The notes beneath the pieces are model-generated. The model saw only the letters and a list, made by a program, of their open reading frames with translations. It had not been told where the DNA came from and searched no databases. The translations under genes were made by a program, and so were the position numbers. This document shows positions 4,573-22,888 of a stretch of DNA of 22,888 nucleotides, piece by piece; positions within the stretch are counted from its first letter, which is position 1; each line of letters opens with the position of its first letter. The stretch comes from a virus: the IMG/VR virus record IMGVR_UViG_3300023223_000400, positions 1 to 22,888 of that record; one strand, given 5' to 3'.

Positions 4573-4971
4573 TTAGAATTTACAGTCGTGAGGTTTGTTG
4601 TGAATCAGACCGAAGAATCCTGGGCTCGCGTCTGCTAATTGAGCGTCCCAGTCAGCATGATGGGTCTCGGTCACCTTGCCGTCTTCCGATATGATGAAGA
4701 AATATTCTTCTGCCATTGAATCAGTCACCATGAGGAATTCCACCTTGTTCCACATGATATTCCGATGAACGGCATATTCTGAACCGTTGAGTTGGCCCAC
4801 GTAGATGTAGCCAGTTGAATTAGTACCATCGCATGTGGCCGGGGCGTATCGTTCGAATTCAGTCTTGTAGATCTCCACGACCTTATCTTCGTATTCATCA
4901 GCGTATGATGGCGACCACACCAATAATGCGGTAAGTCCTACTAGTACTAAACCTATGATTAGATGTTTCAT
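4573..4971 (-). CDS. Small exported protein with cleavable signal peptide
   Basis: A 132-residue protein beginning with Lys-His and a hydrophobic stretch (residues 3-20), followed by SYA then DEY, a good signal-peptidase I site after residue 24. The mature part of about 108 residues is acidic and contains two Cys residues (one near 47, one at the extreme C-terminus, HDCKF) that could form a disulfide in the periplasm. No lipobox or further membrane span is seen. The ATG overlaps the stop of the gp55-like sigma gene (ATGA), so the two are translationally coupled. A periplasmic role during infection, such as envelope modification or exclusion, is an inference. The family is not recognised. Confidence 0.75.
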   Translation of the reverse strand: MKHLIIGLVLVGLTALLVWSPSYADEYEDKVVEIYKTEFERYAPATCDGTNSTGYIYVGQLNGSEYAVHRNIMWNKVEFLMVTDSMAEEYFFIISEDGKVTETHHADWDAQLADASPGFFGLIHNKPHDCKF

Positions 4972-9440: not shown

Positions 9441-11864
9441 ATGCCACGCAACCCAAGATACGAACAAGGTGTATCTCGTATAGCCCGCGACGACTGGTCG
9501 GGAGAGCGACGCACGCCTAATATTCAAGAGCAATCTCTTGGGTTCTATATTGGTATAGTTATGGATGACTTCGATGATCAGCGTTTGGGTCAACTATGGG
9601 TGTATATTCCAGGGCTGTCTGCCAGGCGCTTTGAAAACGAAAGTGTACCAAGCTATGGTGGAACAGTGCCGGATAGAAATCAACCTGGTGATGACTCTGC
9701 TAATCTAGATTATGATCAGGAACTTCGACTGGGATGGATACAATGTATGCCTATGTTCCCATTCTTTGGTTCTGATGATTATCGTGTTAAGGAAGGTATA
9801 GATACAGACAAACGTAATTCAGAAGTGGGTGATGTTGTTTCGTATGGGTGGTGGTCCCAGCCAAGAAATGGTGATCACGTAGGCGTGTTGTTTGCCCACG
9901 GAGATATTGCAAAGGGATTTTGGATAGGATGTATCCCGAAGTTCTCAAGGAACTTCATGGTCCCCGGTTCTCCTGGCAGACCACCTAAAGACTTTAGTGA
10001 TAAAGCCGAACATGCTACTACCGTCGCACTGAAGAATGCTGCTCCTGATGAAGCTGGCATCCCAGCTCTTGATAAAGCACGTCATACTACTACCCAAAAG
10101 AGGAACGCTGACGGAACATCGGATGCAACAAGACCAGGTGGTATTGAAGTAGAAACTGAGAGTCCTTTAGCTGCTACTGATTTTGCTTTCAACTTACGTG
10201 AAGCGGGTCTTCTCTGTGATCCATTAAGGGGAGCCGGGAGTTCAAGTTCTAGACGAGAGAGTCCTTCATATGTCACGGGTTTTAAATCTGCAGGATGGTC
10301 TTTTGATAGTGAGAAGAACAATCTTAATAACCTAGACCCTAATAATTTGGAAGCGGTCCCGCGTGGCAAAAGGTTTTCCGCATCCAGTCCCGTGGCCGGC
10401 GGACTTAGTACTTTCGCTGGCGTGAATACTACTGGGCATCAATTGGTGTTCGATGATCATCCCGATTGTCAGAGTATTCGTCTTCGGACATCTGCCGGTT
10501 CACAGATCTATTTCAACGATTCGTGCGCAGCGCCGTTCATTTATGTTTCTACTGCAAGAGGGAACGTATGGATTGAACTTGTTGATGACGGTGCCATGAA
10601 TGTATATGGTAGGGGCTCGGCATCATTCCACTTCGAGGAGGATATCAACTTAACTGCGGGTAGAAATATAAATTTGGAAGCGCGTGGCAATATGAATGTT
10701 AGTGTGGGTGGAGATTATACAGAAGATATAGTTGGCGGTCTTAACTCGACAGTAGGTCTTAGCTCCATATCATCTTCAGCCGATTTTGAAGTCAAAACGT
10801 TAGGTGCAATAAACCTCCAGGCCCTTACGAAACTTAGTTTGCTTTCAAGTAATGAAATAGTAGAACAGGCTGCTGGTAATTTCGCAGTCACTGCCGGTGG
10901 GGTGTATCGTGAAGAAGCGCCGGCCGGTATTTTCATGAACAGTGGAGCTGGTTCTCCAGGAGTCATGGCGTCAGACCCTGGCATATTTGAATTGATTCAA
11001 GTTCCTGGCATTCCAACCCAGGATGAAATAGCTGTGTGCCGTGAGCCAGAAGCGGATCTTGATGCACTGGCATCAATAGTTCCCCAACACCAACCTTGGA
11101 CAGGACGTTGTGGTAATTCTCGTGGCTTTCGTGGTTTCGCTGATGAATCCGAACCATCGGTTAATATGAGGGGGTCATCAAGATCAGACGCTGGAGCGCC
11201 ACTATTGGTAATCGGATTGATAAATGGAACTCAAGCTCTATTTGTGCCTAATAGTTATCAGACGAATTCATTGGCTGAAGAACCTTCATATATACAAGAA
11301 GCTATTCCCGCCGGCAAGCTCAATCCAGCATCGACTTACACTACATCTCAAAGAATGAGGAATTTCATTCAAAATTTCGAGTTGTTTTCAGGCAAAGCTT
11401 ATCTCGACGCTGGCGTTAAGTATGCTATTGGATTCGGCCATAATATCCTCGTGGGTGATATAATTAATGATATCAACGGGAATCAGATTGTTGTAGATCA
11501 AGCTGAACTAAACAGACTAAAACGCACAAAAGGTGATTTACGTATTAATCGGGATGAAGCCGACCGAATATTTGATATCGACCTACTAAAATTTGAGCAG
11601 GGTGTTAAAGATAATGTCACAGTGGACATTACCCAAAATCAGTTCGATGCTATGGTGTCATTTTCTTATAACTGTGGTGTTTCCGCTATGGCTAAAAGCA
11701 CGTGGTTACGTGAATTAAACAACGGTAGATTTCAAAACGTGCCGAATTCATGGATGAAATTCAGCCAATCGAATAACCCGAATGCGCCGCCAGCCAAGGC
11801 AGTGAATGCAGGTCTTTTACGACGCCGACGAGATGAGCTGGAGAATTTCTTCGCTGTAGTTTAA
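9441..11864 (+). CDS. 5: gp5-like central spike with C-terminal GH24 lysozyme domain
   Basis: An 807-residue needle protein. Residues about 33-170 look like the gp5/VgrG OB-fold (GFYIGIVMDDFDD, QLWVYIPG, and later GDHVGVLFAHGD and GFWIGCIP). Residues about 335-500 contain short alternating repeats (SIRLRTSAGSQIYF, INLTAGRNINLEARG, NMNVSVGGDYTED) typical of the triple-stranded beta-helix. Residues about 640-805 are a T4-type lysozyme: Glu647 and Asp656 align by exact spacing to T4 lysozyme Glu11 and Asp20, but the Thr26 position is Ala662 in YAIGFGH. Domain order differs from T4 gp5, where lysozyme sits between OB-fold and beta-helix. It should pierce the outer membrane and locally open peptidoglycan. 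The stop overlaps the convergent sigma gene. Confidence 0.88.
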   Translation: MPRNPRYEQGVSRIARDDWSGERRTPNIQEQSLGFYIGIVMDDFDDQRLGQLWVYIPGLSARRFENESVPSYGGTVPDRNQPGDDSANLDYDQELRLGWIQCMPMFPFFGSDDYRVKEGIDTDKRNSEVGDVVSYGWWSQPRNGDHVGVLFAHGDIAKGFWIGCIPKFSRNFMVPGSPGRPPKDFSDKAEHATTVALKNAAPDEAGIPALDKARHTTTQKRNADGTSDATRPGGIEVETESPLAATDFAFNLREAGLLCDPLRGAGSSSSRRESPSYVTGFKSAGWSFDSEKNNLNNLDPNNLEAVPRGKRFSASSPVAGGLSTFAGVNTTGHQLVFDDHPDCQSIRLRTSAGSQIYFNDSCAAPFIYVSTARGNVWIELVDDGAMNVYGRGSASFHFEEDINLTAGRNINLEARGNMNVSVGGDYTEDIVGGLNSTVGLSSISSSADFEVKTLGAINLQALTKLSLLSSNEIVEQAAGNFAVTAGGVYREEAPAGIFMNSGAGSPGVMASDPGIFELIQVPGIPTQDEIAVCREPEADLDALASIVPQHQPWTGRCGNSRGFRGFADESEPSVNMRGSSRSDAGAPLLVIGLINGTQALFVPNSYQTNSLAEEPSYIQEAIPAGKLNPASTYTTSQRMRNFIQNFELFSGKAYLDAGVKYAIGFGHNILVGDIINDINGNQIVVDQAELNRLKRTKGDLRINRDEADRIFDIDLLKFEQGVKDNVTVDITQNQFDAMVSFSYNCGVSAMAKSTWLRELNNGRFQNVPNSWMKFSQSNNPNAPPAKAVNAGLLRRRRDELENFFAVV

Positions 11865-12757
11865 ATGAACAAGTCTGTTGGATCGATGCCCATATACCCG
11901 ACTTGATTTTTTAACTCCGTTTCGATTTTCTCGTGAGCCTCATTCCTGATTTGACGAACGCGCTCCTTGGATATTTTGAATCTCTTACCAAGCTTATCCA
12001 ATGTTATGACATCGCCTTTCTCTTGTAGCTTTTGTGCAATGAATATCTTTCTCTCCCGTGGGGTGAGGACTTTCTTCATCACATCACGAACCAGACGCTT
12101 TTGAAACTTAATGGTCTCGTTGATGATAGTCTCTTCCTCCACCATCGGCGTGTTGGCTGCCAGCGTATCTCCTTTGGTTATATCACTGTCTTCGGACTTA
12201 CCGATCTTTTCAGAGAGCGAGTCATGAGGCTTACGAAACATATCATACATGCACTGTATCTCTGTGACAGTCGTTCCATAATCCTCAGCTAAGGTGGCGG
12301 CCACATTGGTGGTCAGCGTGAAGCTGCCATTTTTCCTCATCTCTTTAGCGATGAGTTTTCTTAAGGCGAAGAAGAGCTTCTTCTTCATGTGGCTAGTGCA
12401 CACATGAACAAGGAAGTAGTTCTTGGTTATGAAGCCGTACATGACACCTTTTACCCAAGTCTTAGCATAGGTAGAGAAACGTAGACCCCTTGACAGATCA
12501 TATCGTCTGGCGGCCTCGATTAGGGCTACTAGGCCCTCGGACGTGAGTTCTTCGGGGTCCATCCGGTAGCCGGATAGCTCCTTAATCGTTCTGAGGATAA
12601 TAGGAGAGTAGCTCACTACGATCTTAGTGAGGTACTGGTTGTCTTTGGTTTCACGCCATTTAACGAAAAGCTCGATCTCTTCCTCCTCGGTGAGCAAGAC
12701 GCGATGGGATTTGACGAAATTCTTAGTCGTGAGGCCCACGGTTTCGTGGTTCTTCAT
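11861..12757 (-). CDS. RpoH-like (sigma32-type) sigma factor
   Basis: A 298-residue sigma70-family protein close in length to E. coli RpoH (284). Region 2 spans about 45-110 (LTSEGLVALIEAARRYD, then RFSTYAKTWVKG). The stretch HMKKKLFFALRKL at 123-135 matches the RpoH-box pattern that distinguishes sigma32 from housekeeping sigma. Region 4 is at about 228-280 with LTPRERKIF and the recognition helix SKERVRQIRNEA. It lacks region 1.1. A strong AAGGAGG site precedes ATG 12757. It is transcribed against the surrounding baseplate genes and ends tail-to-tail with the spike gene, sharing TTAA. It probably redirects host RNA polymerase to heat-shock-type or phage promoters. The fold is clear; the promoter set is unknown. 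Confidence 0.9.
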   Translation of the reverse strand: MKNHETVGLTTKNFVKSHRVLLTEEEEIELFVKWRETKDNQYLTKIVVSYSPIILRTIKELSGYRMDPEELTSEGLVALIEAARRYDLSRGLRFSTYAKTWVKGVMYGFITKNYFLVHVCTSHMKKKLFFALRKLIAKEMRKNGSFTLTTNVAATLAEDYGTTVTEIQCMYDMFRKPHDSLSEKIGKSEDSDITKGDTLAANTPMVEEETIINETIKFQKRLVRDVMKKVLTPRERKIFIAQKLQEKGDVITLDKLGKRFKISKERVRQIRNEAHEKIETELKNQVGYMGIDPTDLFI

Positions 12758-12879: not shown

Positions 12880-13251
12880 ATGGCGGCTCCTTTATATCGT
12901 GGATTTTCAACTAAAGCCAGAACAGGCATAGATACTAGGATCTTTGACATAGATCTGGTACAGGCTGATCTGCTTAATAAATTTGAGACCCGTCTCGGTG
13001 AGAGAGTGGGCCGACCGGATGAGGGCTCAATCATTCATGATCTCCTTTTCGAGCCAATCGATTCTAGGACTGAGGCACTAATAACAGCCGATGCAGAGCG
13101 CATTATTAATGAGGACCCAAGAGTCGAGCTAATAGATATGGTAGTTAATTTTACTCCTGACACAGGCACTATACAACTTGATCTGACCCTACAATTTGTC
13201 GAGTTCGATATGAATGACTCATTCACCGTTACCTTTGAGGGAGGCACCTAA
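12880..13251 (+). CDS. 25: gp25-like baseplate wedge protein
   Basis: A 123-residue protein of the gp25/IraD-like family, the sheath-nucleating wedge component of contractile tails; T4 gp25 is 132 residues. The conserved core EGSIIHDLLFEP (48-59) with a following polar segment, then the EDPRVEL motif (78-84) and beta strands typical of the family, are all present. The N-terminus (residues 1-25) is a positively charged arm. AAGAGG lies about 12 bases before the ATG and AAGGG closer. The stop overlaps the next start as TAATG, coupling it to the gp6-like gene, its structural partner in the wedge. Confidence 0.92.
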   Translation: MAAPLYRGFSTKARTGIDTRIFDIDLVQADLLNKFETRLGERVGRPDEGSIIHDLLFEPIDSRTEALITADAERIINEDPRVELIDMVVNFTPDTGTIQLDLTLQFVEFDMNDSFTVTFEGGT

Positions 13252-16200
13252 TGACCGCTCTCGCCAGACAAAATACCTTATTCGTTAGCGAAGACTGGAT
13301 CAGAATTTATGAAGCGATCCAGAATGTCGATTTCCGTGCGTATGACTTTGACAATTTAGTCGCTGCTCTAGTAAATCATCTCCGCGATAACTTCCCCGAA
13401 GAGTTCAATGATTGGATTGCATCATCTGAATTCATTATGAAGGTTGAGGTGTTAGCTTGGCTATCACAGAATATCGCATTCCGTGTGGATCTTAATTCAA
13501 GAGAGAACTTCTTAGCCACCGCAGAACGACGCGATTCATTAATAAGATTAGCACAGAATATTTCGTATAAGGTTAATAGAGTGCGTAGTGCGACTGGAGA
13601 AGTCAGAATTGAAAGGATTCGTACTAACCAAGCTCTGTTCGACTCTAACAATACTGCACTCCAAGATAGAGAGGTTATTTGGAATGATCCGAAGAATGAA
13701 GATTTCTTTGAACAGTTCATTTTAATTCTTAATGCGGCACTTACAACACGTGCTCAGTTTGGTAGACCTATAGCCCGATTCACTGAGGGGCAAAACAAAA
13801 CCGAAGAATATGTATTCAACACGGCAGCGCCTACATCAGGTACTTTTCCATTTAACACCAATATTAATGGCGTACCATTACCTTTTGATGTAGTAAACTC
13901 ACGCCTCAATGATACTACTGGAGTGTTAGAAGAATTGGCACCAAACCCAGAAAATACTTTCAGTGCTTTCTTTAAACAGGATGGTCGAGGATTAAGTTCA
14001 ATTGGTTCAGGGTTCTTTTTACCAATAAAGCAAGGATCGCTCGCCTTTCAAGATGAACAGTTTGATGATGCCATCCCAGTACGAACCGTTGAGATTAACG
14101 CACAGAATGTCAATAATGATGATTTCTTTGTTCAAGAATTAGACGCACAAGGAAACGTTATCGCTGCTTGGGAACAGGTCGATACAGTCTTTGGTGAGAG
14201 TGTAAGCTTCAACGTGCAAGAAGAGAATAATGAAAGAGTGTTTGAAATAGACACCCTCGTTAATGATCGCGTAAGAGTTAGATTTGGTGATGGTAAGTTT
14301 GGGGCGATTCCTGTAGGTAGATTCCGATTCTGGTACAGGACTGCGAATCCACAACCACAACTTATTCAGCCGGCCGATATTAATAGTCAGACATTCACAT
14401 TGCCTTATGTAGCAAACGGTCAGGTATTCTTTCTTACTATCACGTTTTCATTAAAGGAAACAATTGCTAACGCTGCTGCATCCGAATCAAACTTTGATAT
14501 TAGGACCAGAGCTAACCGCGTGTTCTATACTCAGAACCGTATGATTACGGGAAGGGATTATGAAAGTTTCTTTTTGAAAGACAATGCTATTCGAAAGGTG
14601 AAAACGGTTAATCGAACCTTTGCTGGTCATTCACGATTCGCAAAACTTAATGATCCAACTGGGCTATATCAGAATTTGAAGATTGTTGCTGAGGACGGTC
14701 GATTATTCCAGGAAGACACCATAGCTATTCAATTTGCTACAGCCGACACTCAGCTTCTTTCAGTACAAGAGTTAGTAGACCAAATAGTAAAGCCTCTGCT
14801 TAAGAAAGCTGATAAAACTCTGCTTTATTTCAACAAATATCCCGAGCTGTTTTTCCCTTCTATCCCAGAATTAAGGTGGGTTCAGACATCTATCATCGCT
14901 GGTCAGTCACGTGGAAACATTACCGATAATGGTACGCCGGTCGCCGTCGGTGACACTGCTAGTGGTGACTTAATTTTCGTAGACGCTGATGCCGTAATAA
15001 GAATAGACACACCAGGTGGAGATCTCGTTTTTGTTGATAGGATTATCGGTGATGGTACTGCCTCGGATGGTATCATCTTGGGTAAGATTATTGAAGATAA
15101 TTCGAAGGTAGTGTCTGTTGTTCCAGCATTCCGAAATACTATTAATGGTGATGAGCAATTCTTACTAGAAGAGCAATTAGAGATGAAGCTGGATGTTGGG
15201 TTGTCCTTTGACCAAGATACTGAATCGTACCTGATTGTTACTTTTGATAACTTAGACAAAACAAGCCTCTTTAGCTTAATTAACCAGGGAGATGTGACGG
15301 GGGCGGGGCTCGATGCTTCTTGGATGATAATGCTAGAGTTTATTCCTGGCGGGACAGAAGAAGATAAGTGGAAAATCACAGACCGTGGTTTTGGTATCTT
15401 TTTCGAATCGGCTAGAGAGAATGATTTCTTTTTTGTAAACAATGAGCCGGTTGTTGATCCAGAAACTGGTGAGGTGGTTAATGATACAATCACGTTACTT
15501 GAATGTAATGAGTCGCGGGATAGTTTGCGGCGACGTAGGCTTCCAGGTATACCAGGACTCGCATGTCCATTACGTTGTTTGGAATTCCTAGGCGACGGCA
15601 CAACTACGGATTTCAAAACGCAGGAGGGTCCATTAGATCCAGAAACTGTTGTGACTACAGATACTGTTCTTCAGGTTCTTAATTCTGATTATATAATCGT
15701 AGCTTCGGTTTCTGGAGATATTGTCAGGTTCATCAATCCACCCGCAGTTGGAGCACAAATTTTGGTCTGTATATCGACATCACTTATCAACGTTAACCCG
15801 ACCGTTGCTGTGTTTCCTGGAGATGATTTAACAGTCGAGTTTGATTTGGGTGTACAGATAGTTAACCCAACGAATATATTGAGTTTCATTGATGGTGTTA
15901 TGCAGAATTCATCTTTGGATTTCGGCGTGGGAACAATTGGAAATAATGCGAGCATACTCTATGGAGCCCCGATATCAACGGGCTCGCAGGGTGTAGCTTA
16001 CACTTTGGGAGGAGTGGATAGCCCAATCTATAACAAGTTTAATTTTACGGGAGATGGTTCAACAACTATCTATAATATCGCGTCGTCTGAACAAACCGAA
16101 GACACAATTCTTATAGCATGGGATGGTATTGTTCAAGATCCTGATACTTATACAGTAGCTACAGTTTTCTCTGGAACAGAAATAACCTTTACCACCGCGC

Positions 16201-17630
16201 CTCCATTGGGGGTTAATATGCGAATCGTATCTATAGCAATTCCGGCATTTACGCAAAGCGCAGTATTCCGATTTCCCACGGATGGTAGTCAGCAAACTTT
16301 CATACTAACCGGGCTGACATCTATAAACTCATCACAAGCTATGGTATTCATAGATGGAGTTTTACAAGATGGCGACTGGTCAACAACACCAGTCTGGACC
16401 CCAGCGACTAACGCAGTATTCTTTACAGTTGCCCCAGCCGCTTCTCAAGTTGTGGAAGTGTTTGCGGTCCTTGGTGCCGTAGGAACGGCCATAGACTTCG
16501 ATCCTGACGATCTCTTACCTGATGCCAGCACACCATTCAATTTGGGTAATATTGCGGTCAGTTCATGTGATGTGAACTATTTGGGTCAGGATGTGAACTT
16601 ATTTGTAGCAGACGTGCTCCGTCATGATGATGGTTTTGTAAATGCTAACGGTGTACTCGTAACACCAGCAGATGATGATCGTTCAGGATTTTTTGATAAT
16701 CCATTCTTGTTTAGAGATATTGTACTCCAGGATGGTTTCACTGACTTAGTACTATGGAGAAAAATTGAAGAATTAGGATTCACAATTAATGATCCAATCA
16801 ATCAATTGACAAGTCCTAAAGGTACATATGGACGTTCTAGCCAAGGTGGTGTTGCTGTTGGTGATCCGCTAGCTCTTGCGGTAGCCAATGGTGATATACA
16901 TTTGGATGTGTCTACTAATACTTGGTTAGTAGCTAATAGCATACTGAACATGTGGGAGGCTGCTCCAGATCAAACTCAATTCAAGTCTGAAATAGGACGG
17001 GATCATCTCAAGTTTATATGGAAGCATTTCGCCCCTGATGCTTTCAGAATAGATCCATCAGTTTCCAATGTTATGGATGCATACATATTGACCAGTACTT
17101 TTGATGATGCTTTCCGTACGTTCCTATCTAATAATGACCCGATATCGGAGGCTCCGGTGGAACCGACACCAGAGTCATTACGTATTCAGTTTGCCGAGTT
17201 TGAACAGTTCAAGGCAATAAGTGATGCTATTATTTTTCACACGGCACGTTATAAGGCGCTCTTCGGTCAACAAGCTGTTCCTGAACTTCGTGGTATATTC
17301 AAGTTGGTGCAGACACCGGGTTCACTAATCAGTGAGAATGATCTTAAGCTTAGAACTTTAACGGCCGTTGATGAGTTCTTCGATGTTAATAATTTTGATT
17401 TCGGGGAGACTTTCTTCTTCACCGAACTTATTGCTTTTATCCATCAGCAGTTAGCTCCAGAAGTCCAGTCTGTCGTTATTGTACCCACAGAGAACGATCA
17501 GGCATTTGGTCGGCTATTCCAAGTTCGTTCAGAGCCGGACGAGCTATTCATTTCAGCAGCTAGCCCGGAGGATGTAGAAGTAGTTGAATCACTAACCGAC
17601 GAAGAATTAAGAATTGGGACATTCATCTAA
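13251..17630 (+). CDS. 6: gp6-like baseplate wedge protein, greatly enlarged with beta repeats
   Basis: A 1459-residue homologue of the gp6/baseplate-J family, more than twice T4 gp6 (660). Residues 1-150 carry the wedge N-terminus, and RFGDGKFG at 344-351 is the hallmark of this family, followed by helices with TRANRVFYTQNRMITGRDYE. Residues about 560-625 form a Gly/Asp-rich insert (GDLIFVDADAV, GGDLVFVD). Residues about 776-1075 contain four related segments with a GDGxxTxF-like start, a central xxDGVxQ motif and in some a TFTTAPP-like end, a pattern common in phage tail-fibre beta domains. The C-terminal 380 residues resume the wedge-like fold (LFGQQAVPELRG). It overlaps gp25-like and 102-residue genes by TAATG. 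It should form the wedge ring that opens during contraction. Confidence 0.85.
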   Translation: MTALARQNTLFVSEDWIRIYEAIQNVDFRAYDFDNLVAALVNHLRDNFPEEFNDWIASSEFIMKVEVLAWLSQNIAFRVDLNSRENFLATAERRDSLIRLAQNISYKVNRVRSATGEVRIERIRTNQALFDSNNTALQDREVIWNDPKNEDFFEQFILILNAALTTRAQFGRPIARFTEGQNKTEEYVFNTAAPTSGTFPFNTNINGVPLPFDVVNSRLNDTTGVLEELAPNPENTFSAFFKQDGRGLSSIGSGFFLPIKQGSLAFQDEQFDDAIPVRTVEINAQNVNNDDFFVQELDAQGNVIAAWEQVDTVFGESVSFNVQEENNERVFEIDTLVNDRVRVRFGDGKFGAIPVGRFRFWYRTANPQPQLIQPADINSQTFTLPYVANGQVFFLTITFSLKETIANAAASESNFDIRTRANRVFYTQNRMITGRDYESFFLKDNAIRKVKTVNRTFAGHSRFAKLNDPTGLYQNLKIVAEDGRLFQEDTIAIQFATADTQLLSVQELVDQIVKPLLKKADKTLLYFNKYPELFFPSIPELRWVQTSIIAGQSRGNITDNGTPVAVGDTASGDLIFVDADAVIRIDTPGGDLVFVDRIIGDGTASDGIILGKIIEDNSKVVSVVPAFRNTINGDEQFLLEEQLEMKLDVGLSFDQDTESYLIVTFDNLDKTSLFSLINQGDVTGAGLDASWMIMLEFIPGGTEEDKWKITDRGFGIFFESARENDFFFVNNEPVVDPETGEVVNDTITLLECNESRDSLRRRRLPGIPGLACPLRCLEFLGDGTTTDFKTQEGPLDPETVVTTDTVLQVLNSDYIIVASVSGDIVRFINPPAVGAQILVCISTSLINVNPTVAVFPGDDLTVEFDLGVQIVNPTNILSFIDGVMQNSSLDFGVGTIGNNASILYGAPISTGSQGVAYTLGGVDSPIYNKFNFTGDGSTTIYNIASSEQTEDTILIAWDGIVQDPDTYTVATVFSGTEITFTTAPPLGVNMRIVSIAIPAFTQSAVFRFPTDGSQQTFILTGLTSINSSQAMVFIDGVLQDGDWSTTPVWTPATNAVFFTVAPAASQVVEVFAVLGAVGTAIDFDPDDLLPDASTPFNLGNIAVSSCDVNYLGQDVNLFVADVLRHDDGFVNANGVLVTPADDDRSGFFDNPFLFRDIVLQDGFTDLVLWRKIEELGFTINDPINQLTSPKGTYGRSSQGGVAVGDPLALAVANGDIHLDVSTNTWLVANSILNMWEAAPDQTQFKSEIGRDHLKFIWKHFAPDAFRIDPSVSNVMDAYILTSTFDDAFRTFLSNNDPISEAPVEPTPESLRIQFAEFEQFKAISDAIIFHTARYKALFGQQAVPELRGIFKLVQTPGSLISENDLKLRTLTAVDEFFDVNNFDFGETFFFTELIAFIHQQLAPEVQSVVIVPTENDQAFGRLFQVRSEPDELFISAASPEDVEVVESLTDEELRIGTFI
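15576..16475 (+). repeat. Four degenerate beta-domain repeats inside the gp6-like gene
   Basis: Four diverged copies of about 60-75 residues each start near residues 776, 853, 930 and 1005 of the gp6-like protein. Shared landmarks are FLGDGTTTDF, VFPGDDLTVEF, FTGDGSTTIY and FPTDGSQQTF at the starts, and FIDGVMQ, AWDGIVQ and FIDGVLQ in the centres of copies two to four. The repeats are recognisable in protein rather than DNA, implying old duplications. Confidence 0.65.
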
Positions 17631-17938
17631 TGAACTGGATCAACGATATGAAGAAGCGAGCTGGCATAGTCACCGAACAGCCAGAGCAGCAAGACCGTAC
17701 GAATGAGTTAGAAGAAAGACTCTATCAAGCCTTCAAAGGAGTTACAAAAGGCTGGCCTTCCGTTCACAATAACATACTTGAGATAAACCTCGAAACGGAT
17801 GATTTTCCACTATCTATAGATCAAATCCGTGAATATGATGCCCTTGTAAAAAAGACCCTCGCCGGGGTAAACGTGGAATTCGTCGGCCTAAAGGGCGGCG
17901 TTAGTTTCGACGTTGAGCTTATATGGCGCCTTGACTAA
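17630..17938 (+). CDS. Hypothetical protein, 102 residues
   Basis: A small acidic protein whose start overlaps the gp6-like stop (TAATG), so it is coupled to the baseplate operon. It opens with an amphipathic helix (residues 1-15), a Gln/Glu-rich linker (16-24) and a helix up to about 40. Alternating strands follow (NILEINLETDDFPLS), then a helix (IREYDALVKKTL) and final strands VEFVGLKGG and FDVELIWRL. The pattern suggests a compact alpha/beta domain. The coupled position suggests a structural or assembly role in the tail, but no family is recognised. Its last bases hold the -35 element of the promoter for the next gene. Confidence 0.7.
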   Translation: MNWINDMKKRAGIVTEQPEQQDRTNELEERLYQAFKGVTKGWPSVHNNILEINLETDDFPLSIDQIREYDALVKKTLAGVNVEFVGLKGGVSFDVELIWRLD

Positions 17939-17959
17939 TATTCCTTTCTGTATTAGATT
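17931..17959 (+). promoter_or_regulatory. Sigma70-like promoter for the TAXI solute-binding protein
   Basis: TTGACT (17931-17936) and TAGATT (17954-17959) are exactly 17 bases apart and 42 bases before the ATG. The -35 element overlaps the end of the preceding gene. The CTTGAC context also resembles the -35 of RpoH-type promoters, so either factor could act. Confidence 0.5.
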
Positions 17960-17972
17960 CAATACCCACACA

Positions 17973-17980
17973 CGTAAATC
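17973..17980 (+). promoter_or_regulatory. Late-promoter-like box upstream of the TAXI gene
   Basis: CGTAAATC lies 21 bases before the ATG, at nearly the same distance as the box before the gp48/54-like gene. It differs from TATAAATA at three positions, so support is modest. Confidence 0.25.
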
Positions 17981-18001
17981 TAGGATTATGAGGATTCTCA
18001 A

Positions 18002-18919
18002 ATGAGAAAATTTCTGACAGTTGCCGCTGCAGCTCTTGTAGTGGCTCTTGGTTCCTCGTCCATTGGTGTAACTTCAATTCTCACAGAGGCGTCTGCTGCT
18101 GCTACCGCCAATGCTGCGTTGAGGCTATGTACTGGTGGTACGAAGGGTAATTATTACTTCTCCGGTCAACAGATTAAACACCAGGCTCAAGGAGACATTG
18201 CCGTAGAGGTAGTTTCCACGAGAGGCACATGGGATAACTTTATCAAGATGGCCAATGACGAATGCGATGCTGCTATTGTTCAGGCAGATGGTTGGTCCGT
18301 TTGGAATGCCAAAAACCCCAGTGCTGCTCTAATGTTAGAGCGGGTAGATGTACTTTACGATGAGTATGTGCATCTGTATTGCAATCGCGAAAGTGGTATC
18401 GATGAGGTCGGCGATCTTGAAGATAATTCCGGTAAGTACACAATTCTTACAGGCAAGAATGGATCTGGTAGCCAAGTTACTTGGAGAAACTTTATCATTG
18501 AAGATGACGACTACGGACCAGAGCACGTGACCCAATTGCCTCTAGGCGGCGCTCGTGCCAGGACCAAGGTCAAGGCTGGTATTGATGCTCAATGTGCTAT
18601 CTATGTTGCTGGTCTAAACTCTTCTTTCATGACAAAAGTTGAAGAGCTTAGTAAGTGGGTTCGTTTGGTCGATGTTGACGACGGCGACTTCAACGATACG
18701 GTAGATCCTGCCGGCAATCCAGTTTATACTTTCAAGACGATCCCTGAAAAGACGTATCCGGGGCTCATCGACGCTGTGTTCAGCTTAGACACAGTAGCTG
18801 TAAAAGCTGTTCTTGTCGTAACGGCTAACTGGATCGATGAAAACGAGGATGCTTATGATCGTTTTATCGATTATCAGCTTAACGCTCAGAAGGTAATCCG
18901 CGAGCACGTTGGTCAGTAA
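18002..18919 (+). CDS. TAXI-family periplasmic solute-binding protein
   Basis: A 305-residue protein with an N-terminal signal peptide (basic MRK, hydrophobic core to about 25, ASA cleavage site near 32). The mature part resembles TAXI-type receptors of TRAP transporters: a first strand entering CTGGTKGNYY (43-52), a VEVVSTRGTWDN segment (68-79), then DAAIVQADGW (89-98) and a hinge-like ILTGKNGSGSQVTW (148-161). Four Cys residues in the mature part could form disulfides. In bacteria such proteins bind organic anions or amino acids and deliver them to a membrane transporter; no membrane subunit is encoded here. GAGG lies nine bases before ATG 18002. Flanked by its own promoter and a strong terminator, it is built like a cargo gene. 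It could serve host nutrient uptake, block host uptake, or be a virion part. Confidence 0.8.
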   Translation: MRKFLTVAAAALVVALGSSSIGVTSILTEASAAATANAALRLCTGGTKGNYYFSGQQIKHQAQGDIAVEVVSTRGTWDNFIKMANDECDAAIVQADGWSVWNAKNPSAALMLERVDVLYDEYVHLYCNRESGIDEVGDLEDNSGKYTILTGKNGSGSQVTWRNFIIEDDDYGPEHVTQLPLGGARARTKVKAGIDAQCAIYVAGLNSSFMTKVEELSKWVRLVDVDDGDFNDTVDPAGNPVYTFKTIPEKTYPGLIDAVFSLDTVAVKAVLVVTANWIDENEDAYDRFIDYQLNAQKVIREHVGQ

Positions 18920-18940
18920 ATTCAAATTTACTTAAACCGG

Positions 18941-18970
18941 AAAGGGGGCTTTAAGCCCCCTTTTTCTTTT
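18941..18970 (+). terminator. Strong intrinsic terminator after the TAXI gene
   Basis: A GC-rich hairpin with arms AAAGGGGGC and GCCCCCTTT and a five-base loop is followed by TTTTTCTTTT. It lies 22 bases after the stop codon and separates the TAXI gene from the following late gene. Confidence 0.93.
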
Positions 18971-19009
18971 CTATGTACTAACCATCTCCAAAATGGCACC
19001 TAGTCAAGC

Positions 19010-19017
19010 TATAAATA
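19010..19017 (+). promoter_or_regulatory. T4-type late promoter box TATAAATA
   Basis: An exact TATAAATA lies 28 bases before the ATG of the long structural gene and about 40 bases after the terminator. It is the consensus read by gp55-type sigma factors in T4, and a gp55-like gene is in this window. Confidence 0.7.
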
Positions 19018-19045
19018 ATCGAGCAACTAGCAGAGCCACCAAGAA

Positions 19046-22000
19046 ATGGTCAGAGAACGTAGAGCTTTTTCGAATTACCCAGATAACCAGAAGACCGCCC
19101 AAAATGATAGGGAGACTTTCATTGCGGACGATCTTATGTTTGAGCCTGAAAAGTTTGATTTTCTTAATGGCTTCATAGGTGATGTTGACAGGCTCACCGC
19201 TGAAGATCTTCAAAGAACTCCCCAGATCATTGAGAGAGATGCCGAGAGGCAGAAGTATCAACTTTCTATTGGCGCCACCTTCATCAATCCAGACACCCAG
19301 GTTCGTACTTCTGGGGCATTCTATACAGACGTAACCAGACAGATTAGTGCCAATGGTGGAATCATCGATGATCCCAACAGGCTGTTCAGTACGGATTTCT
19401 ATGCCTGGACTCCTCCTATTGATTACGACAAGCATATTAACTTCGGTCGATATGTGTGGGTGGGAGCAGGTAACGCAGAGGTCAATGGAGAATACATTAC
19501 GAAAGAACCGGCGCATTCAAAAACAACCATATATGAGTTTGATGGATCAGCGTTTATCAAACGTGATGTTGAAATAGTAAATGGTCTTCCTGCACCAGGC
19601 CCAGATGGAACATTCGTAGAAGATGCCAGTACAGTTGATAGATTCATTTATCGTTCAAATGGCGCGGCCTTTGTTCAGCTTAGTTTTTCCGTGGTTGCAG
19701 ATATTCCAACAGACTTCACAGGATTTATTGTAGGTGATTTCGTATACGTTGCCCGTACCGGACCAGAATTCAATCGTCCACTTGTTTGGATATTCAGCGA
19801 ACCTGCCGGTAGGTGGATTCCGCAACCGGTCGTTGTTAATCCTATAGAACCCAGCAGCCCACGCGAGGGTATGGTATGGGAACACGCACGAATTAATCCT
19901 CGCAGGCCATTCTATGTATTCACTAATGGTGTATTCGTTGAGTTGGCTTATACTCCTCAGGATGGACCGACTGGTGTTGGTGTTGATGGCGAATACATTT
20001 ATGACACGCGAGATTATGCGGACATCACTGATGGTTGGGTGAGAGAAAACTGGTGGCGTCATGCTGAAGATCTTGCGCCCGTTGACGTAGCTGCAGCTGG
20101 CTCGGAAGGACAATCTGTACGCCCCATAGTTGAATTTTGGAATGGCCTGGAACCGTTCCCCGGTGATGCTAGAGATTTTCGTAACGATACACCTATATTC
20201 AAGAAATTTGCTTTTGACTTATTGTCTAGTGAAATTGTTGATACTGGTGAAAGCACTACGATATTTCAATATAAGGTTGGTACAGGCACAGATGATTTTG
20301 TATTAGGTTTTCCCATTACCTTCAATGAGACAGGAGAGTTCGTATTTGATCTAACCTTGGAATCTGGAACATCCGCATTTACGGGCTACAAGTTCTTTAG
20401 GGAATCAATATCAGATCTTGTTCATTCGGTATGGATGAAGTCTGATGTTAAGACCGTCCAAGAAGAGGACGCTAATGGTCTCTTCGAGTTACCGAAAGGT
20501 ATAACCTCGAATCCAGATCATGAGGTACTTACTGAAGTTTCTCGATCACGTATGTTGTTGCACATGACTTCGGTTATTGAGGCTCAAGACACTTTTTCTG
20601 GTGACAAGTTCGGTATTAACTCGTGGCGATGGACTCGCCGGAGCCCGGTTTTGGGAGCTACTATGATTGATAATGAGCAGACTCTATTACGAGTTCTTGC
20701 TTTGCTTCAAAACGTCAATCTTGATTTACCAAACGCGATACGACGGATTGCAAGGGAATATAATAAAGTATTATTCCGTTTCACAAACAGACTTAATCAG
20801 TTGTGGGATGACAACACATTGGCTGATGCTGCCAATACTCTATTAGTGACACCAACTGAGGCAGTAGATGCTGTTCTAACTGAGCTATTCATTGGTAGGA
20901 ATGAAGACTTTCCATTCTTCTTTTCTGATATGGGGACTTATCTTGAGACACGAGTGTTCGGTGGAATAGCTTCCGTAGTTGATCCTGCTTCAAAACCAAT
21001 ATTCGTTCCAGCATCTGCGGCACGTAACGGTGCAGCTCCCTGTTTCAAACCAGAATCTTTTGTAGATCGGGATGGGACTACTTTACTACGTGGTCATGAC
21101 GGACAGATAATTGAATCGTTTGGTGATGATCGTGATCTTATTTGGTTAGAACTACAAACACGTTTCTTTGATGCAACACCGTCATCCTATTGCACGGAGT
21201 CTTCAACTTTCTCATCACGATTTTCTCTCTCGAATTTCTTTCTTGATGATTTTTTTGGTAACCTAATTCCACTTACTGACATCGAACCGGTTGATAATGT
21301 AGTCGATGATTTCAATACTGTTGTAGGACCCACACCAGGCCAACGTGTGTTCTCAAAACTACAACCCGTGTTCGCTACATTTAATGGTGCTTCGTGGTTT
21401 ACTACCCCGGTGACCACTGATGATACTTTCCTTAATAATGACGATGGTGAATTCTATATTTTCAACGGCCTTGGCACGTTTATCATTGATACGTTCAATA
21501 GGCCATTTATCTTTGACTATTCAGACAACGAATTCAGGCGCATAATACGCCGAGAGTTCGAGCGTTTCATTACTACCGTATCAGACGATTTCACAGTCAA
21601 CAACACATTTGATGTTAATGATCCCTTCACTTGGAATTTCCGGTCTGCGGGCGTTGAAGGTAATTATGTCGGTATCTATCGTCGAGTTTATAATACTGAA
21701 CAACCGCATTCACATCCATGGGAAGTGGTTGGATATAAGATAGAACCAGACTGGTGGCGCACCCAATACGTGCCCGATAGTACAGCGGCCGATGGCACGC
21801 CGAGATATGGAAGTACTCATCCTATGTGGGTTGATTTCGCCGCTGGGTTTATCGATCATCCAGTTACTCCATTCACCCGCGTAGATTTAACTATGGTAGC
21901 TCCTATCCCGGTTGATGTAGTTGGCGAGTTACTTGATCCAATAGCAGCAGGCGTCGTTGATGAGGGTAAGCTCGATTTACGTAGAATTGATGATGGTTGG

Positions 22001-22888
22001 GCTTATGGTGATGGGTCGCCAGTAGAGTTACAATTTACTAGATCTGCATTCTATGCGTTTTCCTTTTCTCTGACTAGTTATCTTATGAAAACAGCCCTCT
22101 GGGTAGACAATGCCTGGTCAGAAGTGTACATCGACATTGGAGATGTTGGGGCCAATCAGATATTCAGGTCTCCCCATATTGTTCATAGGGACACGTTGAC
22201 TAGACCAGCCATTGCGGTTTTACCTGTTCATTTAGAAATTGACGATAGTGGCAACACGGTTCAACGGTTAGGTATAAATTCGTGGATCTCGGAGGCAGTT
22301 AGAATTGCCGGCGGCAGTCCACAGAATGATTTTGGAAGAGTAATTAGGAATACCTCTCCTGCTCTAAGCTGGAGAACTGCAGGTTTCATCAATGAAGACC
22401 GCACAATTATAACGACACTAGCTAACATTGAGATCCCGTTCGAGGATGTTCATGTTCTTCTTCACAGGTCACAGCCTATCCAGGACGAATTCGTATCTGG
22501 TGTGATAGTAATAAGAGAAAATCCCGGATATCGTGTTTTTGGGTTTGACCCATTCGATCCTCTTTTCCGTGTAGAGCTTCCTGAAATGCCTATTGTGGCT
22601 GCGCAATCAGAACTACAAGAAAGTTTTATCGTAGAGGCTATTGATCCTTCTCTATTTGACGGATCAGTTTTCAATAACGGCACGGTGACTAGGAGCTTTA
22701 CACTCACTGAACTTACATTACCATTACAAACACGAATAGATACCGCAAAGTTTGGCGTATTGATTAATGGCTCTCGTATCAAACCACAGCATATTACTAT
22801 CATCAGTAATACTGAGTTCGAAATAGAAGATTTGGTCGAATTGGAAATAGGTGATGTGGTAACCGCTAGTGTTATTACTACCCCTATG
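19046..22888 (+). CDS. Very large tail or baseplate structural protein, open at right edge
   Basis: The frame starts at ATG 19046 and stays open for 1281 codons to the right edge, so the gene is partial. The start sits just behind the TATAAATA box; the ribosome-binding site is weak (CAAGAA). The protein has no signal peptide, is rich in aromatic, Asp and beta-type residues, and shows recurring phrases (ENWWRHAED and EPDWWRTQY; DDFNTV and SDDFTVNNTFD) suggesting related modules. It includes a helix-rich part (about 550-620, LLRVLALLQNVN) and, near 1160, PGYRVFGFDPFDPLFR. In T4-like order a gp7-type wedge protein (1032 residues) follows gp6, so a baseplate wedge arm is a reasonable guess. No family motif proves it. 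Confidence 0.7.
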   Translation, partial: MVRERRAFSNYPDNQKTAQNDRETFIADDLMFEPEKFDFLNGFIGDVDRLTAEDLQRTPQIIERDAERQKYQLSIGATFINPDTQVRTSGAFYTDVTRQISANGGIIDDPNRLFSTDFYAWTPPIDYDKHINFGRYVWVGAGNAEVNGEYITKEPAHSKTTIYEFDGSAFIKRDVEIVNGLPAPGPDGTFVEDASTVDRFIYRSNGAAFVQLSFSVVADIPTDFTGFIVGDFVYVARTGPEFNRPLVWIFSEPAGRWIPQPVVVNPIEPSSPREGMVWEHARINPRRPFYVFTNGVFVELAYTPQDGPTGVGVDGEYIYDTRDYADITDGWVRENWWRHAEDLAPVDVAAAGSEGQSVRPIVEFWNGLEPFPGDARDFRNDTPIFKKFAFDLLSSEIVDTGESTTIFQYKVGTGTDDFVLGFPITFNETGEFVFDLTLESGTSAFTGYKFFRESISDLVHSVWMKSDVKTVQEEDANGLFELPKGITSNPDHEVLTEVSRSRMLLHMTSVIEAQDTFSGDKFGINSWRWTRRSPVLGATMIDNEQTLLRVLALLQNVNLDLPNAIRRIAREYNKVLFRFTNRLNQLWDDNTLADAANTLLVTPTEAVDAVLTELFIGRNEDFPFFFSDMGTYLETRVFGGIASVVDPASKPIFVPASAARNGAAPCFKPESFVDRDGTTLLRGHDGQIIESFGDDRDLIWLELQTRFFDATPSSYCTESSTFSSRFSLSNFFLDDFFGNLIPLTDIEPVDNVVDDFNTVVGPTPGQRVFSKLQPVFATFNGASWFTTPVTTDDTFLNNDDGEFYIFNGLGTFIIDTFNRPFIFDYSDNEFRRIIRREFERFITTVSDDFTVNNTFDVNDPFTWNFRSAGVEGNYVGIYRRVYNTEQPHSHPWEVVGYKIEPDWWRTQYVPDSTAADGTPRYGSTHPMWVDFAAGFIDHPVTPFTRVDLTMVAPIPVDVVGELLDPIAAGVVDEGKLDLRRIDDGWAYGDGSPVELQFTRSAFYAFSFSLTSYLMKTALWVDNAWSEVYIDIGDVGANQIFRSPHIVHRDTLTRPAIAVLPVHLEIDDSGNTVQRLGINSWISEAVRIAGGSPQNDFGRVIRNTSPALSWRTAGFINEDRTIITTLANIEIPFEDVHVLLHRSQPIQDEFVSGVIVIRENPGYRVFGFDPFDPLFRVELPEMPIVAAQSELQESFIVEAIDPSLFDGSVFNNGTVTRSFTLTELTLPLQTRIDTAKFGVLINGSRIKPQHITIISNTEFEIEDLVELEIGDVVTASVITTPM

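Follow-up and report, generated by a model that had tools for sequence, protein, structure and literature searches.

The question raised by this locus is what a phage might gain from carrying, in the midst of its baseplate genes, a gene for a TAXI-type solute-binding protein, a receptor of the kind known from transporters. The window, by which we mean the whole stretch of DNA that was analysed, is a viral record of 22,888 bases and possibly a fragment. The phage it comes from is T4-like and of the jumbo type, akin to the Atu_ph07 and Phosso jumbo phages, and the record holds gp25-like and wedge proteins, a hub with lysozyme, a giant structural protein, SbcC/SbcD-like genes and a late sigma factor. 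The initial annotation had placed the gene in a baseplate region, and this is correct, as gp25-like, wedge and giant structural genes lie around it. The features referred to below are the following.

13251..17630, plus strand: baseplate wedge gene, left backbone flank (phrog_10646; relatives)
17630..17938, plus strand: ORF of 102 aa with no assigned function (76% conserved in the sister phage L303)
17931..17959, plus strand: weak sigma70-like promoter match, 9 of 12 (sequence match)
17939..18986, no strand: swapped cargo segment (L303 homology ends with the stop codon of the 102-aa ORF, 17938, and starts again at 18987)
17990..17994, plus strand: ribosome-binding-like site GAGGA, 7 nt 5' of the ATG (sequence)
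18002..18919, plus strand: gene for the TAXI-type solute-binding protein P0001, 305 aa (TIGR02122, PF16868, phrog_6856; AlphaFold2 model and PDB matches)
18002..18115, plus strand: predicted signal peptide and linker, residues 1-38 (hydropathy; low pLDDT to residue ~38)
18939..18972, plus strand: intrinsic terminator, 12-pair stem and T-run (folding energy against shuffles)
19010..19017, plus strand: T4-type late-promoter motif TATAAATA (the single exact match in the window; kept in L303)
19046..22888, plus strand: giant virion structural gene, cut by the record end, right backbone flank (phrog_10938)

A 170-aa antisense ORF at 19004-19516, which overlaps the structural gene, was set aside. 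Elsewhere in the window, three observations on the minus strand may be recorded in their own right. Namely, the SbcC-like gene (949-2707) is spread over two overlapping frames (949-1557 and 1469-2707), each with a match to phrog_77; the split may be real or may result from a frameshift or a sequencing error. A second sigma-70-like factor (11861-12757; phrog_351, with sigma regions 2 and 4) is encoded within the baseplate cluster, on the strand opposite to it, and recurs in the relatives. Finally, a 132-aa protein (4573-4971), whose start resembles a signal peptide and which matches no family, adjoins the late sigma factor and is possibly another secreted phage protein.

The reading frame at 18002-18919 is genuine, with an ATG start and an intact frame. 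Its product is only just over the cut-off of TIGR02122 (84.6 bits against 84.35, with 268 of 320 positions aligned), scores 66.3 bits against PF16868 (cut-off 27) and matches phrog_6856 with an E of 9e-54 (residues 23-291 on 8-274 of 288), so that the proposed identity as a TAXI receptor is borne out by profile search. An AlphaFold2 model, for which a 32-row alignment of related loci served as input, reached a pLDDT of 89.4 and a pTM of 0.83. The best six PDB matches to this model are TAXI receptors throughout, at Z 23.5-25.2 (for 8s4j, Z 25.2 over 252 residues with an rmsd of 2.9), and the next unrelated fold follows at Z 14.9; because of this drop, we take P0001 to have the fold of a two-lobed receptor, as opposed to that of a virion protein. 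In other words, between a two-lobed binding protein and a phage virion domain, the choice on which the initial annotation had staked its proposal, structure prediction favours the former. The N terminus also looks like that of a secreted protein, as had been suggested: MRK is followed by a hydrophobic core at residues 4-18 and AxA sites at 30-38. The signal peptides of the homologues are shorter and typical.

That said, the notion that a phage-borne TAXI receptor would be a novelty is out of date. Such genes are already known as phrog_6856, where no function is assigned, and several GenBank phage records carry a TAXI annotation. In the RP12/RP31 paper there is just an entry for a 'TRAP transporter solute receptor like protein', and TAXI/TRAP genes go unmentioned in the main texts of the FBKp24 and Asesino papers, of a 2021 jumbo-phage survey and of a 2026 review. 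As a single query, P0001 found no relative in viral_contigs, and since the diversity of a 12-row alignment made it unsuitable for pattern searching, sub-family alignments were used instead.

Is the gene part of the phage's standing equipment? Using the wedge protein as query, we collected 18 related loci and compared those that span the site. In the sister phage L303, whose wedge protein is 89% identical, other DNA, with an ORF on the minus strand, takes the place of 1,048 bases that include both the TAXI gene and its terminator, and as the 102-aa ORF is conserved there, this ORF belongs to the phage backbone and lies outside the cargo. Other relatives carry different small genes at the site, such as a DUF1289 gene in L307, and nothing at all is inserted in L312, L313, L315, Phosso and Atu_ph07. 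The TAXI gene itself was found in none of 11 related records and in none of three named jumbo phages searched whole. It is thus exchangeable cargo in a T4-like jumbo-type phage, as the initial annotation had it, and resembles a moron in being absent from close relatives at the same place, and the comparison defines a precise cargo slot inside a jumbo-phage baseplate cluster.

The control elements proposed for this cargo fared differently from one another. The terminator is strong (-18.6 kcal/mol, z of -4.1, equalled by 0 of 200 shuffles), whereas the promoter match is no better than chance: 26 sites of the 9-of-12 type were observed in the region against 21.9 +/- 4.7 expected from shuffled sequence, although its -35 box, TTGACT, is absent from L303, which has TAAACT. 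The motif TATAAATA stands 3' of the cargo and 5' of the next structural gene, and none stands 5' of the TAXI gene; given this position and its retention in L303, the cargo apparently makes no use of it.

Homologues of the gene are scattered over phages and prophages of several kinds, rhizobial, Pseudomonas, Vibrio, Erwinia and Klebsiella ones among them. Their genomic settings are unrelated: they lie beside regulators, tRNA clusters or DNA metabolism genes, and an E. coli prophage copy has a tRNA gene on one side and the lysis genes on the other. It is in this light that one should judge whether P0001 might be a component of the virion or the baseplate, as the initial annotation had also entertained. 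While the position between baseplate and giant structural genes speaks for such a role, the gene is absent at the same locus in all relatives checked, so that their baseplates do without it, in unrelated phages the homologues map to early, tRNA or lysis-side regions, the N terminus is signal-peptide-like, the gene has a terminator of its own and the best fold matches are receptors. We therefore consider a virion role very improbable.

How do the phage copies relate to the receptors of cellular transporters? In a quick maximum-likelihood tree of 73 sequences, including 39 cellular receptors, P0001 and the phage copies group together and are split from the cellular receptors by a branch with an SH-aLRT of 97, a split that may look too clean, because one side was gathered by phage seeds and the other by a transporter profile. 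The one exception is a 'phage' sequence, L014, from a fecal contig, which groups with the cellular receptors. A few chromosomal genes also belong to the phage lineage, and the rows nearest to P0001, L099 and L101, come from gammaproteobacterial assemblies. When the phage profile was run against 274 gammaproteobacterial genomes, six genes scored 174-320 bits and all else at most 97 bits, although the score of L099 is not independent, since L099 is part of the scanning profile. Those of the high-scoring chromosomal genes that were read in context are solo, with no adjoining permease and no obvious prophage. Judged from these sequences, the tree and the scan show phage TAXI copies as what appears to be a lineage apart from the transporter receptors, common to a few solo chromosomal genes, which is a new observation.

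Several forms found alongside this lineage may be mentioned here. In L101 (3233-7742), and likewise in L109, a chromosomal solo TAXI domain is fused to a long N-terminal part, and 3' of the fused gene in L101 there follow DUF2491, a 255-aa gene without assignment and a ligand-gated ion channel that carries a receptor domain. More than 100 plasmids, mostly of Klebsiella (e.g. L192, NZ_CP024875.1), carry a piece resembling the end of the prophage TAXI gene together with the small gene beside it, apparently a remnant. Last, L252 and L253 are cellular TAXI proteins of 430 aa for which membrane segments are predicted both at the N terminus and around residue 340, a membrane-anchored form.

If the phage lineage stands apart, does it still bind a ligand? 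The ligand contacts of the receptor VcGluP have been published, and Tyr45, Gln93 and Glu125 among them contact the amino group of the ligand (PMC11574862). Mapping the contacts onto the phage lineage by profile alignment to 8s4j, we find Y51, Q94, E121 and G156 present in P0001, with S75 replaced by Thr76. Across the lineage, counting only sequences with a letter at the given position, the equivalents of Y45, Q93, E125 and G156 are kept in 32/32, 33/33, 33/33 and 33/33 cases, as against 35, 30, 26 and 36 of the 39 cellular receptors. All phage copies thus appear, by alignment, to retain the Tyr, Gln, Glu and Gly contacts of VcGluP, which is also new. As the kept Tyr45, Gln93 and Glu125 equivalents hold the amino group in VcGluP, the ligand of P0001 may be a small amino-acid or acidic one, glutamate-like being our best guess, by analogy with a distant homologue of ~21% identity to P0001.

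The C terminus is a different matter. In 32 of 33 lineage members the tail after Tyr242 measures 51-70 residues (the one outlier has 19), and none of the 39 cellular receptors has fewer than 88. P0001 has 63 residues past Tyr242, so that the full C-terminal part of domain 1 is absent, and the final residue of its model aligns to residue 298 of the 328 of VcGluP. By this comparison, about 25 and up to 30 C-terminal residues of the transporter receptors appear to be missing in the phage lineage, again a new observation.

These features bear on whether the gene is simply a host gene, recently captured and carried passively without a role. Speaking for this reading, the phage of the window is the only one of its group with a TAXI gene, and the G+C of that gene is slightly above that of most neighbours. 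The lineage, however, spans unrelated phages with the pocket residues kept without exception, and the reading frame in the window is intact, so that we find passive carriage distinctly improbable.

The main rival reading is uptake. Namely, P0001 may be the product of an auxiliary metabolic gene that feeds glutamate-like nutrients to a host permease, be it a TAXI-type TRAP permease, GltS or another, in the manner of cyanophage PstS. The ligand pocket is intact, TAXI receptors occur in many Alphaproteobacteria, and GltS has been proposed, on genetic evidence, as an alternative membrane partner of TAXI receptors (PMC12344293); E. coli, the host of one prophage copy, has GltS in a control search, though E. 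coli was left out of the evidence on TRAP permeases. We looked for two permease families, TRAP_fused (TIGR02123) and GltS (PF03616), at the family cut-offs. Among the 11 bacterial genomes that carry a gene of the phage lineage, some of them drafts, two have TRAP_fused over the cut-off, one of these two also has GltS, and nine have neither, while TAXI-type receptors exceed the TIGR02122 cut-off in eight of the 11. TRAP_fused was likewise absent from all nine distinct TAXI-carrying phage genomes searched whole, one of which is a partial record. In the 22,888-base record there is no TRAP membrane component, and no gltS gene was found beside or fused to the ORF at 18002-18919; the lack of transporter genes in the window, to which the initial annotation had pointed, says little by itself, because the record is possibly a fragment. 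A permease outside the two families could serve P0001. Nevertheless, the nine carrier genomes without either permease, the nine phage genomes without TRAP_fused, the separate lineage and the missing C-terminal segment make it unlikely, as a general rule, that the phage protein borrows or outcompetes the TAXI transporter of the host, as had been suggested, and the uptake reading as a whole seems to us rather unlikely.

What stands beside the phage genes instead, in most cases, is a very small membrane protein. We defined a partner as a hydrophobic ORF of 25-90 residues directly adjoining the TAXI gene and, by this admittedly crude hydropathy test, found one in 25 of 37 phage loci (less than 85% identical) versus 16 of 133 other genes of those loci (Fisher p of 8e-11). 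Taking 75% representatives and relaxing the hydropathy limit slightly, we count 24 of 32 phage loci and 4 of 34 cellular receptors, an excess that is likewise new; stricter limits give 21 phage loci versus two cellular receptors, and 17 versus none. The start of the partner often overlaps the TAXI stop. The gene order flips, the partner being downstream in Klebsiella phages and enterobacterial prophages and upstream in Erwinia phages, where it matches phrog_1470 (TciB-like) and is preceded by a TerB-like gene. In a 519-kb phage it matches phrog_1130, a membrane protein, and in the E. coli prophage it has 49 aa. No partner exceeds a Pfam family cut-off, most are without any family, and PADLOC returned no match for P0001 or for the partner proteins. 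In profile comparison, the partner sets are mostly of no detectable kinship, the Klebsiella-type and Pseudomonas-type sets alone looking related, and for this reason some of the genes paired here may adjoin each other by chance. Beside the window copy there is no small hydrophobic ORF within the limits used.

This last point suits another reading, in which P0001 is a periplasmic sink or decoy that merely binds solute, starving or blinding host sensors or competitors, and needs no membrane partner. The window copy does stand alone with its own terminator, and its binding contacts are kept. Against this, the small hydrophobic gene beside most phage copies would go unexplained, and a sink needs high expression, for which there is no strong or late promoter 5' of the TAXI gene. 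We regard this reading as improbable.

The best explanation, which we hold tentatively and at slightly less than an even chance, is that the exchangeable cargo gene encodes a periplasmic receptor of amino-acid type which works without a permease and acts on the infected cell's envelope. P0001 would be exported to the periplasm, where it would close on a small amino-acid or acidic ligand; the liganded protein would then act on the cell envelope without passing its ligand on to a TRAP permease. The very small co-encoded membrane protein would convey the output in most related phages; for the window copy this part would fall to a membrane protein of the host, or to a phage gene beyond the record. 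The location, the type of ligand and the envelope action without a TRAP permease are what we infer, and envelope action seems more likely than nutrient import because the phage lineage keeps the pocket, goes without the usual transporter and sits mostly beside a tiny membrane protein. The likeliest benefit would be control of the infected cell's envelope, either blocking competing phages or holding and timing lysis. Whether the output is exclusion, lysis control or something else is a guess, for which we can cite no more than the TciB/TerB link seen in one group and, from one prophage, a location ahead of the lysis genes.

One can go further and propose that unrelated phages share a hitherto unrecognised envelope module, in which a shortened TAXI receptor senses a periplasmic amino acid and a very small membrane protein converts the signal into a block on competing phages or into lysis control. 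We put this forward as conceivable but rather doubtful. If true, it would mean a nutrient-sensing control point in phage infection, with a transporter receptor used without its transporter. More generally, phage genes labelled 'TRAP transporter solute receptor' are easily taken for nutrient-uptake genes, and this label is probably wrong for the phage lineage, since the pocket is kept, a segment of the receptor is missing, there is mostly no permease and there is often a very small membrane partner. A candidate two-gene system is thus at hand in named temperate and jumbo phages, namely PBC5, Atu_ph08, FBKp24, Asesino and the E. coli prophage.

How, finally, does P0001 compare with known systems? 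With VcGluP (8s4j, 9ibo) and TtGluBP (1us4, 8u79) it shares the fold (Z 24-25), the predicted secretion and the Tyr, Gln, Glu and Gly contacts, and it differs from them in the low identity already given, the missing C-terminal residues, the separate branch and the lack of a cognate permease in what was searched. Cyanophage PstS is likewise a periplasmic binding protein carried by a phage. It is described as binding phosphate for a host uptake system (PMC3429862), whereas for P0001 no host transporter is implied. BP0403 of the Bordetella TAXI-GltS pair (PMC12344293) resembles the phage arrangement in being a TAXI receptor without a TRAP permease whose gene overlaps that of its membrane partner; that partner, however, is a full Na+/glutamate symporter, while those of the phage TAXI proteins are tiny (31-90 aa). 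Phage P1 has a TerB-TciB pair in its tciABC genes (TerB-like, TciB, TciC), and in Erwinia phages a TerB-like and a TciB-like gene immediately precede the TAXI gene. In P1, there is no TAXI gene at that place (TciC was considered as a TAXI protein and dropped, being 35 aa long), the tci roles are assigned by homology only, and the window has no tci gene. The solo genes of gammaproteobacteria (L099, L298-L302 and, in fused form, L101) are like P0001 in their high phage-profile scores and in having no adjoining permease, and unlike the phage genes in being chromosomal and mostly without a small hydrophobic neighbour. There remain the members of phrog_6856 and the annotated TAXI/TRAP receptors Asesino gp8, FBKp24 gp370 and EBPR siphovirus 2 gp58: these three flank a small hydrophobic protein, which the window copy does not, the genomes of this group that were searched lack a TRAP_fused gene, and the window copy, unlike them, sits in a baseplate cargo slot, yet all of them are of the same lineage and length class as P0001.
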